Assembly: GCA_016187385.1 (NCBI GenBank)
Contig: JACPJU010000001.1
Coordinates: forward strand, 401,144-465,143
From: Candidatus Aenigmatarchaeota archaeon
GTDB lineage: Archaea; Aenigmatarchaeota; Aenigmatarchaeia; CG10238-14; SCSR01
Reading direction: 5' to 3'
DNA: 64,000 bases
Below the pieces are notes generated by a model. It was given only the letters and a program-made list of their open reading frames with translations, ran no database searches and was not told where the DNA came from. The number at the start of each line of letters is the position of its first letter. Positions within the stretch are counted from its first letter, which is position 1. A program made the position numbers and the translations under genes. This document shows positions 299-49,061 of the stretch, in pieces.

Positions 299-1726
299 AT
301 GGTAAACTATCAAACCTTGTTATCGAAGGTTTTGAAAAAGACAAAACCTAGGCAGGCAGACGAGAAGAAGCTTAACAACCTTTCAAAGAAAGCACTCGAG
401 ATTACGAGAGAAATAGTGAAGAAGTACCAAGGAAAGGCTATTCTCGCTGGAAGCATTACAAGGGGCACGTGGCTGCCGAACAAGAGGGAATTCGACATTT
501 TCATCCTGTTCCCAGAAGATCTGCCAGAAAACAAACTGGAAGAGCATGGTTTGCTGATAGGAAAACAAGTCATTAAACAACTGAAAGGAAAATCTTTCGT
601 AGAATACGCCCAGCATCCTTATGTGTCTGGTGTGGTTGATGGCGTGGACATAGATATAGTGCCTTGTTATGAAGTCGAGTCTGCGGAAAAGATAAAATCA
701 GCCGTTGACAGGACGCCTTTCCATGTCAGGTACATAGAAAAAAATCTAAGCTTGGAATTGTCAGATGACGTAAGGCTGTTGAAGCAATTTCTTACATCTA
801 ACAAGATATACGGAGCTGACGCAAAGACACAAGGATTTTCAGGGTATGTCTGCGAACTGTTGGTAATTAGATATGGTGGATTCTTGGAAGTGATTAAAGC
901 CGCAAGCAAATGGGTGCCAGGTAGTATTATTGATTTAGAAAATTATTATAAAAAAGAAGACCATCATAAACTGAGGAAAATCTTCAAAAATCAGCCTCTG
1001 ATTCTGATAGACCCTACAGATAGAAATAGAAATACCGCGTCTGCACTTTCCATCGAGAGTTTTCTCAGATTTGTAAAATTGTCTAAGGGATTCTTGGACA
1101 GACCGAATGTAAAGTACTTTTCCGAAAAGAAATTACCTTCAATAACAGGGAGAGAATTGAAACAGAAGCGATTGCAGAGAAAAACAGAATTATTGTTCAT
1201 CAAGTTCTCGCCACCTAAAGTCGTACCTGACATACTATGGCCGCAGCTCAGAAGATTTGCTGAAAGACTGCAGAGCATTCTGGAAGAGACCAAATACGAG
1301 TTCAAAGTCATGAGGAAAGATGTGTATTCAAATGAGAAAGATTTGGTTGTTGTGTTGCTTGAAATGGAGATTCCTAAATTGCCACCTATCCAGAAAAGAG
1401 TGGGACCGACTGTTTTTGCTGTAAAGGATTCCTCAAGATTTCTGGAAAAATACAAAAAACCGTTGACAGGGCCGTTTGTTGAAGAGTCGAATTGGGTAGT
1501 TGAAATCAACAGGAAATTCGTCTCATCGCATGAAAAGCTTGTGGACAGTTTGAAGAAGAGCAACGAAATTCTAAAGTCGAAAGGAATACCGAATTACATA
1601 GCGGATCAATTGTCCAAAGGATTTGAAATATTTTCTGATGACAGGAAGATATTGAAGCTGGTCAAAAGGGATAAGAACTTTGGAGTGTTCCTTAAGAAAT
1701 ACTTCGAAAAGGAAAGTCTGGTTTAA
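299..1726 (+). CDS. cca: CCA-adding enzyme (archaeal class I tRNA nucleotidyltransferase)
   Basis: 475 residues, close to the usual length of archaeal class I CCA enzymes. It adds or repairs the 3' CCA of tRNAs from CTP and ATP without a nucleic acid template. The nucleotidyltransferase signature GSITRGTWLP is at residues 51-60, followed by the acidic pair in EFDIF (Glu64, Asp66) and a third acidic site in VDIDIVP (around 117-119), matching the expected metal-binding carboxylates. The middle and C-terminal parts fit the central, tail and body domains of the family. Neither tRNA gene in this window encodes CCA, so the enzyme is needed here. RNase Z lies two genes downstream, a tRNA 3'-end maturation neighbourhood. 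The identification is firm from motif and length. Confidence 0.95.
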   Translation: MVNYQTLLSKVLKKTKPRQADEKKLNNLSKKALEITREIVKKYQGKAILAGSITRGTWLPNKREFDIFILFPEDLPENKLEEHGLLIGKQVIKQLKGKSFVEYAQHPYVSGVVDGVDIDIVPCYEVESAEKIKSAVDRTPFHVRYIEKNLSLELSDDVRLLKQFLTSNKIYGADAKTQGFSGYVCELLVIRYGGFLEVIKAASKWVPGSIIDLENYYKKEDHHKLRKIFKNQPLILIDPTDRNRNTASALSIESFLRFVKLSKGFLDRPNVKYFSEKKLPSITGRELKQKRLQRKTELLFIKFSPPKVVPDILWPQLRRFAERLQSILEETKYEFKVMRKDVYSNEKDLVVVLLEMEIPKLPPIQKRVGPTVFAVKDSSRFLEKYKKPLTGPFVEESNWVVEINRKFVSSHEKLVDSLKKSNEILKSKGIPNYIADQLSKGFEIFSDDRKILKLVKRDKNFGVFLKKYFEKESLV

Positions 1727-2239: not shown

Positions 2240-3160
2240 ATGCTTCAAATAACATTCTTGGGCACAGTATCGGGAATACCGACCAAAGACAGGAATCACT
2301 CAGCCATAGTTTTCGAGTATTACACTGACAAGAAGGAAACTTTCCTATTCGACTGCGGCGAGGGAACGCAAAAACAATTGATGATGTCTGATGTCAGTTT
2401 CATGGATATAGACAACATTTTCATAACGCACTGGCATGCAGACCATTTCGCGGGATTGATACCATTGATTCAGACGATGAGCATGGAAAAGAGAAAGAAA
2501 GAACTGACAATATTCGGTCCAGAGGCAGAAAGATTTGTAGAAGATATTATTGATCTGGGATATTTCGGTTTGAGATTTCCTGTAAATGCAGTGAATGTCC
2601 CATTCGAAGGAAGCGAAATAACAAAAATCTTCGAGGGAGAAGAATCCGAAATCCTGTCAATACCAACCCTGCATACAGTTCCTAGTGTTGCATACTGCTT
2701 CAAGGAAAAGGACAGGTGGGGCATCGATTTGGACAGATTAAAATCACTCGGTCTCAAGCGCGGAAGTTGGCTGAACAAAGTCAAGAAACATGGCGAAGGT
2801 GGGTACAAGGGACAGAAAGTCAAGATTGAAGACATAGCCGACAAAAAGGAAGGACTGAAGGCCATCTACACAGGAGACACAAAGCCGTGCGATAATGTAG
2901 TTAAACTGTCGCAAGATGCCGACTTATTAATTCATGACGGAACATTTCTCGAACTTGATGAATCTGGCGGCAAATACCATGCGGATGTCGTGGAAGCTGC
3001 AAAGAGTGCGAAAAAAGCCAATGTAAAACAGTTGATATTAACACACATTAGTCGCAGATATCAAAAAGATGATATTAAGGAAATGGAGAGCAGAGCAAAG
3101 AAAGTTTTTCCAAATACTAGTATAGCGCACGACTTTATGAAAATACAAGTGAGAAAATAG
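2240..3160 (+). CDS. rnz: Ribonuclease Z (tRNA 3' processing endonuclease)
   Basis: 306 residues, the size of the short RNase Z form. It cuts pre-tRNA just after the discriminator base so that the CCA enzyme can act. The metallo-beta-lactamase metal motif HWHADH is at residues 64-69. LFDCGEGTQ precedes it, as is typical for RNase Z, and later ligands lie in HTVPS, YTGDT and LTHIS. The N-terminal LGTVSGIPTKDRNHSA block is also family-typical. It lies downstream of cca and the TPR gene on the same strand. Another beta-lactamase-fold RNase, aCPSF1 at 24-26 kb, differs by having KH and beta-CASP regions. Confidence 0.95.
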   Translation: MLQITFLGTVSGIPTKDRNHSAIVFEYYTDKKETFLFDCGEGTQKQLMMSDVSFMDIDNIFITHWHADHFAGLIPLIQTMSMEKRKKELTIFGPEAERFVEDIIDLGYFGLRFPVNAVNVPFEGSEITKIFEGEESEILSIPTLHTVPSVAYCFKEKDRWGIDLDRLKSLGLKRGSWLNKVKKHGEGGYKGQKVKIEDIADKKEGLKAIYTGDTKPCDNVVKLSQDADLLIHDGTFLELDESGGKYHADVVEAAKSAKKANVKQLILTHISRRYQKDDIKEMESRAKKVFPNTSIAHDFMKIQVRK

Positions 3161-3168
3161 ATTGCAAG

Positions 3169-3444
3169 ATGAAACCATTTGAAATTATAGACAAATTCGA
3201 TAGGAGAATCAAACTCACAGAAGACAGAATATGGTCACATATATCTAAAAGACCTGAGATGTTGGATGCTGAAGGTCTGATAAAAATCGCTCTGAAAGAT
3301 CCCGATGAAGTAAGAGAAAGCAAGGAAGATGCTAACGCTTGGTTGTATTACAAGGTTAATCCTAAAGGCGATAAATGGAACAAATTTATAATAATGGGCA
3401 CGACCGGATTTGAACCGGCGACCGATCGATTTCTTAGCGCTTAG
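3169..3444 (+). pseudogene. C-terminally truncated PBECR-like nuclease-fold protein running into a tRNA gene
   Basis: The frame starts 9 bp after rnz and encodes 91 residues. Residues 1-75 (IKLTEDRIWSHI, PDEVRESKEDANAWLYYKV) resemble the barnase/EndoU/RelE-like PBECR type domains found in phage and toxin proteins. I expect such domains to continue with another beta-strand and an ITAY-like segment. Here the similarity stops at about position 3395, exactly the 3' end of the minus-strand tRNA-Ile. The last 16 codons (GTTGFEPATDRFLSA) are only the antisense of the tRNA T-arm and anticodon arm. I infer a truncated remnant, possibly cut by recombination at the tRNA 3' end. A functional short protein is possible but less likely. 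The family call is from memory and moderate. Confidence 0.5.
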
Positions 3445-3501
3445 CTGACATATAAGTCGATTGCTCCTTCTGGAGAGTTAACCAGGCTAAGCTACGTGCC
3501 C
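3395..3501 (-). tRNA. tRNA-Ile (anticodon UAU) with canonical intron and an enlarged D-loop
   Basis: Read on the minus strand, a 7-bp acceptor (GGGCACG/CGTGCCC), T-arm GCCGG-TTCAAAT-CCGGT, a 5-nt variable loop and discriminator A are clear. The anticodon stem is ATCGA/TCGAT. Between its arms the loop is 27 nt. A 4-bp helix CTTA/TAAG flanked by 3-nt bulges TAT and AAA is a canonical bulge-helix-bulge. It places a 20-nt intron at 3431-3450 after position 37 and leaves loop CTTATAA, anticodon TAT at 3452-3454. The D-stem GCTT/GAGC encloses 22 nt instead of about 10, so 12 extra nt (about 3467-3478) may be a second intron. Removing both gives 75 nt, a normal mature length. CCA is not encoded. Confidence 0.9.
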
Positions 3502-48974: not shown

Positions 48975-49061
48975 TGCCCCCGATGGGATTTGAACCCACA
49001 ACTTCTTCCTTGATCCATACATAGGACGGAAGCACTCTAGTCCAAGTTGAGTTACGGAGGC
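48975..49061 (-). tRNA. tRNA-Arg (anticodon CCU) with an 11-nt intron
   Basis: On the minus strand: acceptor GCCTCCG/CGGGGGC with one T-G pair, D-arm ACTC/GAGT, anticodon stem CTTCC/GGAAG, variable loop AAGTT, T-arm GTGGG-TTCAAAT-CCCAT, discriminator A, no encoded CCA. The anticodon loop is 18 nt. GTCC pairs with GGAT (4 bp, one G-T), flanked by bulges TAT and CAA, a minimal bulge-helix-bulge. Cutting within the bulges removes 49011-49021 (11 nt) and leaves loop GTCCTAA with anticodon CCT at 49023-49025. Mature length is 76 nt. Position 32 as G is slightly unusual. CCU reads AGG codons. Confidence 0.92.

Follow-up and report, generated by a model that had tools for sequence, protein, structure and literature searches.

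A stretch of 64,000 nt of archaeal DNA (the window) encodes on its minus strand an isoleucine tRNA whose anticodon, UAU, is specified by the genome itself. This tRNA-Ile(UAU) would read AUA in place of tRNA-Ile2(CAU) and TiaS, its precursor would harbour two introns of the bulge-helix-bulge (BHB) type, and the intron at position 37/38 could fold onto the exons, a reading to which we assign a probability of about 0.88. On sequence evidence, the replacement of TiaS and tRNA-Ile2 by a two-intron tRNA-Ile(UAU) is well supported: by the tRNA and both intron positions, by an assembly in which neither TiaS nor a third CAU tRNA is found, by the mutual exclusion of TiaS and UAU tRNAs, and by two covarying intron-exon helices termed P1 and P2. 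The pairing of the 37/38 intron with the exons and the wide recurrence of UAU beyond two published archaea appear to be new.

According to the proposed mechanism, the 37/38 intron would fold onto the exons prior to splicing, with P2 around the anticodon and P1 on the D-stem. The splicing endonuclease EndA would remove the BHB-type introns at 20a/21 and 37/38, and the tRNA, presumably charged with isoleucine, would read AUA as isoleucine.

The tRNA gene, its introns and the splicing endonuclease

The precursor gene comprises 107 nt (3395-3501, minus strand, 5' end at 3501; C2:404538-404644) and matches the Rfam tRNA model RF00005 at exactly 3501-3395 with 49.8 bits (gathering score 29). Orthologues are found in 30 other genomes. 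The host is an archaeon of the Aenigmatarchaeota (DPANN) with an 876-kb genome assembled in 3 contigs and 91% complete. A protein encoded beside the tRNA is 65% identical to one in JACPAE010000001.1 (Candidatus Aenigmatarchaeota), where the tRNA-Ile(UAU) gene lies at the equivalent place; this record is identical in sequence to genome G003. Upstream, two genes for tRNA 3'-end maturation adjoin the tRNA gene, namely those of the CCA-adding enzyme (299-1726, plus strand) and RNase Z (2240-3160, plus strand). The C-terminal MGTTGFEPATD of a 91-aa open reading frame on the plus strand (3169-3444; no Pfam match) is read antisense to the tRNA T-arm, and the 3' part of this frame is not genuine coding sequence.

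Splicing out both introns joins exon 1 (nt 1-20a; 3480-3501), exon 2 (nt 21-37; 3451-3467) and exon 3 (nt 38-73; 3395-3430), all on the minus strand, into a good, complete cloverleaf of 75 nt. The anticodon TAT (3452-3454) lies in a CTTATA loop that is invariant across 25 aligned spliced orthologues, and the closest tRNA within the genome is tRNA-Ile(GAU) (score 0.75), indicating an Ile-type body. The only tRNA called by ARAGORN in the window, an “Ile(tat)” at 48975-49061 (minus strand), is a tRNA-Arg(CCU) with an 11-nt intron at 37/38 and not a second UAU tRNA.

The introns were located by a solver that went through all cuts compatible with a BHB-like helix and rated each resulting tRNA, with neither site supplied. 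Its best solution is exactly the pair of cuts 3468-3479 and 3431-3450, each with a central helix of 4/4 Watson-Crick pairs. The 37/38 intron (3431-3450, minus strand) comprises 20 nt, TGTCAGCTAAGCGCTAAGAA; its TAAG (3433-3436) and the exonic CTTA (nt 32-35; 3453-3456) form a perfect 4-bp central helix with textbook 3-nt bulges at the exon-intron borders, without an inner helix. The D-loop intron (3468-3479, minus strand) comprises 12 nt, AACTCTCCAGAA, between nt 20a and 21. Here, the exon strand CTGG (3482-3485), which includes G18 and G19, pairs 4/4 with the intron strand CCAG (3470-3473), closing an 8-nt loop in place of an inner helix, and the outer side is an internal loop, as in a relaxed BHB. 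Excision yields the D-arm GCTTAGCCTGGTTGGAGCA, one base off that of the genome's intronless tRNA-Ile(GAU) and also one base off the unbroken GCTTAGTCTGGTTGGAGCA of JACPAE010000001.1; the uninterrupted D-arms of relatives read GCTTAGTCTGGTTGGAGCA or GCTTAGTCTGGTTAGAGCA. The original prediction, made from the sequence alone, had proposed a tRNA-Ile(UAU) at 3395-3501 with a canonical 20-nt intron and a second, relaxed BHB intron built on CTGG/CCAG at about 3467-3479. The gene and the canonical intron were recovered as described, and for the second intron the solver, the restored D-arm and the relatives agree on 3468-3479. Both introns are probably excised in the cell, and EndA is the likely enzyme.

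Among the 31 genomes with a resolved orthologue (JACPAE010000001.1 being represented by G003), the 37/38 intron is present in all, although in some the cuts at 37/38 and 38/39 are slides yielding the identical product. An extra intron is found at seven places, 20a/21, 22/23, 23/24, 26/27, 27/28, 29/30 or 43/44, or is missing altogether, and the tRNA-Ile(UAU) of G002 and G015 contains three introns. For G014, G015 and G032, the solver's D-arm solution was replaced by eye with the register of the relatives in later analyses. tRNA-Ile(UAU) is also a natural record of introns arising at differing positions within one isoacceptor, and this in lineages whose endonuclease belongs to the single-subunit kind, considered too strict for them.

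The 42 tRNA genes found in the host genome are rich in introns: by the solver's approximate count 8 are intronless, 22 contain one intron and 12 contain two (about 34/42 with introns), the approximation reflecting that Trp, Pro(CGG), Pro(UGG), iMet and eMet gave the solver ambiguous solutions or none. This load exceeds the published means of 0.21 introns per tRNA gene for archaea and 0.84 for Thermoproteales (PMC8450103). Two introns in one tRNA, singled out in the original prediction as notable for a compact genome, are therefore not exceptional here, since some 12 tRNAs seem to have two. The five genes on which the solver struggled seem to harbour unusual or additional introns (L021, L035, L049, L050 and L055), and those of iMet and Pro(UGG) appear to be interrupted near nt 7-10. 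The searches used did not recover tRNAs for Phe, Cys and Gly(UCC) from the 91% complete assembly; these tRNAs may lie in the missing 9%, be split or be heavily interrupted.

The genome encodes a single EndA (L040:1474-2040, minus strand), a stand-alone protein of 188 aa with N- and C-terminal domains. In all alignable EndAs of the class (L145-L160), a [KR][KR]GPK loop lengthens the stretch from the catalytic Tyr to the catalytic His by about 6 residues. The archaeal EndAs compared from outside the class have no such loop, with ARMAN-2 having extra residues at the equivalent place. Because alpha4, or single-subunit, endonucleases are reported to cut canonical BHB motifs only (PMC4033280), this basic loop near the active site is a candidate determinant of relaxed specificity. 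At the position of the ASL and CSL loops, the host EndA has about 4 extra residues (YGKPLPEEDPKR), which the other aligned class members lack; a class-wide loop of the ASL/CSL type was accordingly dismissed as the cause of relaxed splicing.

AUA decoding and the distribution of TiaS

Archaea usually read AUA with tRNA-Ile2(CAU), modified to agmatidine with the help of TiaS. In the window, AUA is the commonest isoleucine codon (659 of 1410, 47%) and occurs in 39/39 open reading frames. A profile search for TiaS (PF08489) was negative in the host genome (91% complete), as well as above the cut-off in all 57 relatives and in all 106 genomes of the phylum that are at least 80% complete, while TiaS was detected in four control archaea. 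A weak match in G028 lies below the cut-off, in a frame with two stops. A search of the host genome for CTCATA followed by a T-arm retrieved two CAU tRNAs, the initiator and one read as elongator Met, but no third; the other two matches are part of a tRNA-Tyr and noise. TiaS had been predicted to be absent, and a tiaS gene together with a tRNA-Ile2(CAU) elsewhere in the genome had been named as a finding that would weaken the case. Neither was found in the assembly, which at 91% completeness might have missed one of them when this genome is taken alone.

The distribution across 392 archaeal genomes extends this result. TiaS is found in 132 of them, a strict tRNA-Ile(UAU) pattern in 58, and both together in 0 (Fisher p=5e-12); outside the class, the pattern occurs in 0/132 genomes with TiaS versus 25/117 without (p=1e-9), both p-values being optimistic owing to the non-independence of relatives. 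The pattern has zero control matches and misses genomes with longer or other introns; in this strict form it finds no match in 202 TiaS-less genomes. In other TiaS-less families, 11 genomes have a tRNA-Ile(UAU) apparently without a 37/38 intron, and therefore the intron does not always seem to be needed. An intron-containing tRNA-Ile(UAU) is also found in a genome as large as 3.8 Mb (G313).

The open literature describes tRNA-Ile(UAU) in two archaea, Nanoarchaeum and Korarchaeum, where it is termed a species-specific gain (PMC6000648, PMC8450103), and we found no paper there on tRNA introns of Aenigmatarchaeota (subscription papers were outside the scope of the search). The original prediction named these two cases correctly, but UAU is not limited to a few unusual genomes: it recurs widely among archaea lacking TiaS (58/392 genomes). 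Agmatidine with two exceptions was formerly the settled view of archaeal AUA reading. The exclusive distribution of TiaS and UAU points to a genomic UAU tRNA as the alternative in many archaea with small genomes. How such organisms keep from misreading AUG becomes a live question again, one that the conserved P1/P2 fold renders testable.

Predicted pairing of the 37/38 intron with the exons

In the minimum-energy fold of the precursor, the 37/38 intron is paired with the exons. P2 joins the exonic GAC (nt 30-32; 3456-3458, minus strand) to GTC of the intron (i2-i4; 3447-3449), thus closing a loop around the anticodon. P1 joins GCTTAGC of the D-arm (nt 10-16; 3486-3492) to GCTAAGC of the intron (3439-3445). 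P2 is present in 38/42 sequences, with the middle pair being AU in 6, UA in 8, UG in 20 and CG in 7. When introns were reassigned among exons at random, not one of 20,000 rounds matched the pairing of the real P2. P1 involves the 5' strand of the D-stem in 21 sequences, where the pair at nt 13 is UA in 10 and CG in 9; in other sequences the intron pairs with the 3' strand of the D-stem. On a structure-blind alignment, 95.6% of the P1/P2 cells are paired versus 17-39% for slid versions, and covariation amounts to 0.272, the corresponding values being 0.137+-0.020 for shuffled and no more than 0.088 for slid versions. As judged from this covariation across relatives, the P1/P2 fold of the 37/38 intron has been conserved by evolution, and it probably forms in the cell.

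Within the host genome, P2 is found in 1/15 introns called at 37/38, that of tRNA-Ile(UAU), and is absent from the other 14. Outside the class, introns with P2 occur in six genomes (G159, G235, G254, G303, G313 and G347); P2 is not present in G174 or G331, nor, by eye, in the family of G250. With the 37/38 intron kept in place, 23/25 sequences have a P2 fold whose stability equals or exceeds that of the cloverleaf (-33.5 versus -27.3 kcal/mol in the host). Both helices compete with the D-stem, the anticodon stem and the BHB, and therefore the precursor must refold for splicing. A third helix between the D-loop GGTT and nt 27-30, seen in several folds, failed across sequences by eye.

Alternative readings and known systems

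One point against the preferred reading is the relaxed D-loop motif with its 8-nt loop, which faces an endonuclease of the single-subunit type; alpha4-type enzymes are reported to need canonical motifs (PMC4033280). If the insert were instead kept, the mature tRNA would carry an enlarged D-loop with a small hairpin, and the motif might be fortuitous, as random or shuffled 12-nt inserts produce an equal 4-bp helix with an acceptable D-arm in 1.6-3% of trials. The comparison of relatives provides stronger support for an intron than this shuffle test, and it renders retention improbable. Six relatives with an insert at 20a/21 keep CTGG/CCAG despite changes in sequence and length of the remaining insert (G025 is assigned to this site as a seventh, on a weak helix), a normal D-arm is restored every time the BHB rule is applied, the extra intron of other relatives sits elsewhere or is missing, and similar inserts interrupt many other tRNAs of the genome. 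Even less credible is the notion that TiaS and tRNA-Ile2(CAU) exist but were lost from the assembly, leaving the UAU tRNA redundant. The completeness of 91% would leave room for such a loss, but the phylum-wide lack of TiaS matches above the cut-off, the complete exclusion of TiaS and UAU in the 392 genomes and the retention of UAU orthologues across families all speak against it.

The role of P1/P2 is a more evenly balanced matter, and it lies outside the probability given above for the main reading. The fold might serve splicing only, by providing an alternative or relaxed substrate for EndA or by ordering the two excisions, with no link to decoding. We consider this a serious contender, if somewhat short of even odds, since within the P2 fold the 5' cut (A37|i1) falls in a hairpin loop, some endonucleases are known to accept relaxed motifs of the loop type (PMC12397907, PMC4033280), and the 37/38 introns of tRNA-Ile(UAU) lack the usual inner helix. 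Yet, the fold also occurs in relatives without a second intron (G024, G018, G003), P2 is missing from the other 37/38 introns cut by the same EndA, and the fold disrupts the BHB central helix. More tentatively, P1/P2 could be a cis fold of agmatidine-less archaea that presents the anticodon and is needed for the modification of U34 before splicing, such that AUA is read and AUG is not. Archaea would then have, hypothetically, their own version of the pseudouridylation that depends on the intron in eukaryotic tRNA-Ile(UAU); a role related to splicing is no less likely. That P1/P2 is no real structure, but a chance complementarity of introns of shared ancestry to the exons, seems unlikely. The intron motif is indeed common by descent, and per-sequence shuffles of P1 give moderate p-values (median 0.03, with dinucleotide shuffles often above 0.05). 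However, covariation and pairing clearly exceed their controls, both states of nt 13 occur within single families (G006 in f1, G030 in f6, G026 in f4), and nt 31 is found in three Watson-Crick types.

The closest known systems are the tRNA-Ile3(UAU) of Korarchaeum cryptofilum and Nanoarchaeum equitans, which likewise employ UAU for AUA and have no tRNA-Ile2(CAU). The Korarchaeum gene also contains an intron, and in the published cases as here, the best match within the genome is tRNA-Ile(GAU) (PMC8450103, PMC6000648). In contrast to these isolated gains, for which a D-loop intron is not mentioned, the tRNA described here is present in numerous genomes, where its gene often contains two or three introns and P1/P2 is conserved. 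In this respect it resembles the multi-intron tRNAs of Thermoproteales and ARMAN, which harbour two or three BHB introns per gene at positions such as 20/21, 22/23 and 29/30 (PMC4090602, PMC4033280). The endonucleases of those organisms are of the two-subunit or three-unit type and bear CSL or ASL loops, whereas the host has its stand-alone 188-aa EndA. The ARMAN-2 epsilon2 endonuclease also contains additional residues at the equivalent place, from its catalytic Tyr to its His (I243-E248; PMC12397907), but the EndA studied here stands alone, its [KR][KR]GPK loop is conserved, and a loop of the ASL/CSL type is not found across the class.

Eukaryotes provide further parallels. In yeast, pseudouridines 34 and 36 of tRNA-Ile(UAU) depend on its intron and are thought to bias reading towards AUA rather than AUG (PMC4090602, PMC11912914), and the tRNA-Ile(UAU) of the red alga Cyanidioschyzon merolae contains three introns, in the D-arm, anticodon and T-arm (PMC9602550). 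Yeast, S. pombe and C. merolae thus share with the present gene the isoacceptor and the 37/38 intron, and the alga also the D-arm intron (PMC4090602, PMC11912914, PMC9602550). While the eukaryotic tRNAs undergo intron-dependent modification, P1/P2 is known from archaeal sequences alone. Finally, the intron of archaeal pre-tRNA-Trp, with its box C/D guide, targets the anticodon region of the tRNA that carries it (PMC4090602), as is proposed here; yet the introns of tRNA-Ile(UAU), at 13-29 nt, are too short for a C/D RNA and would pair in cis.
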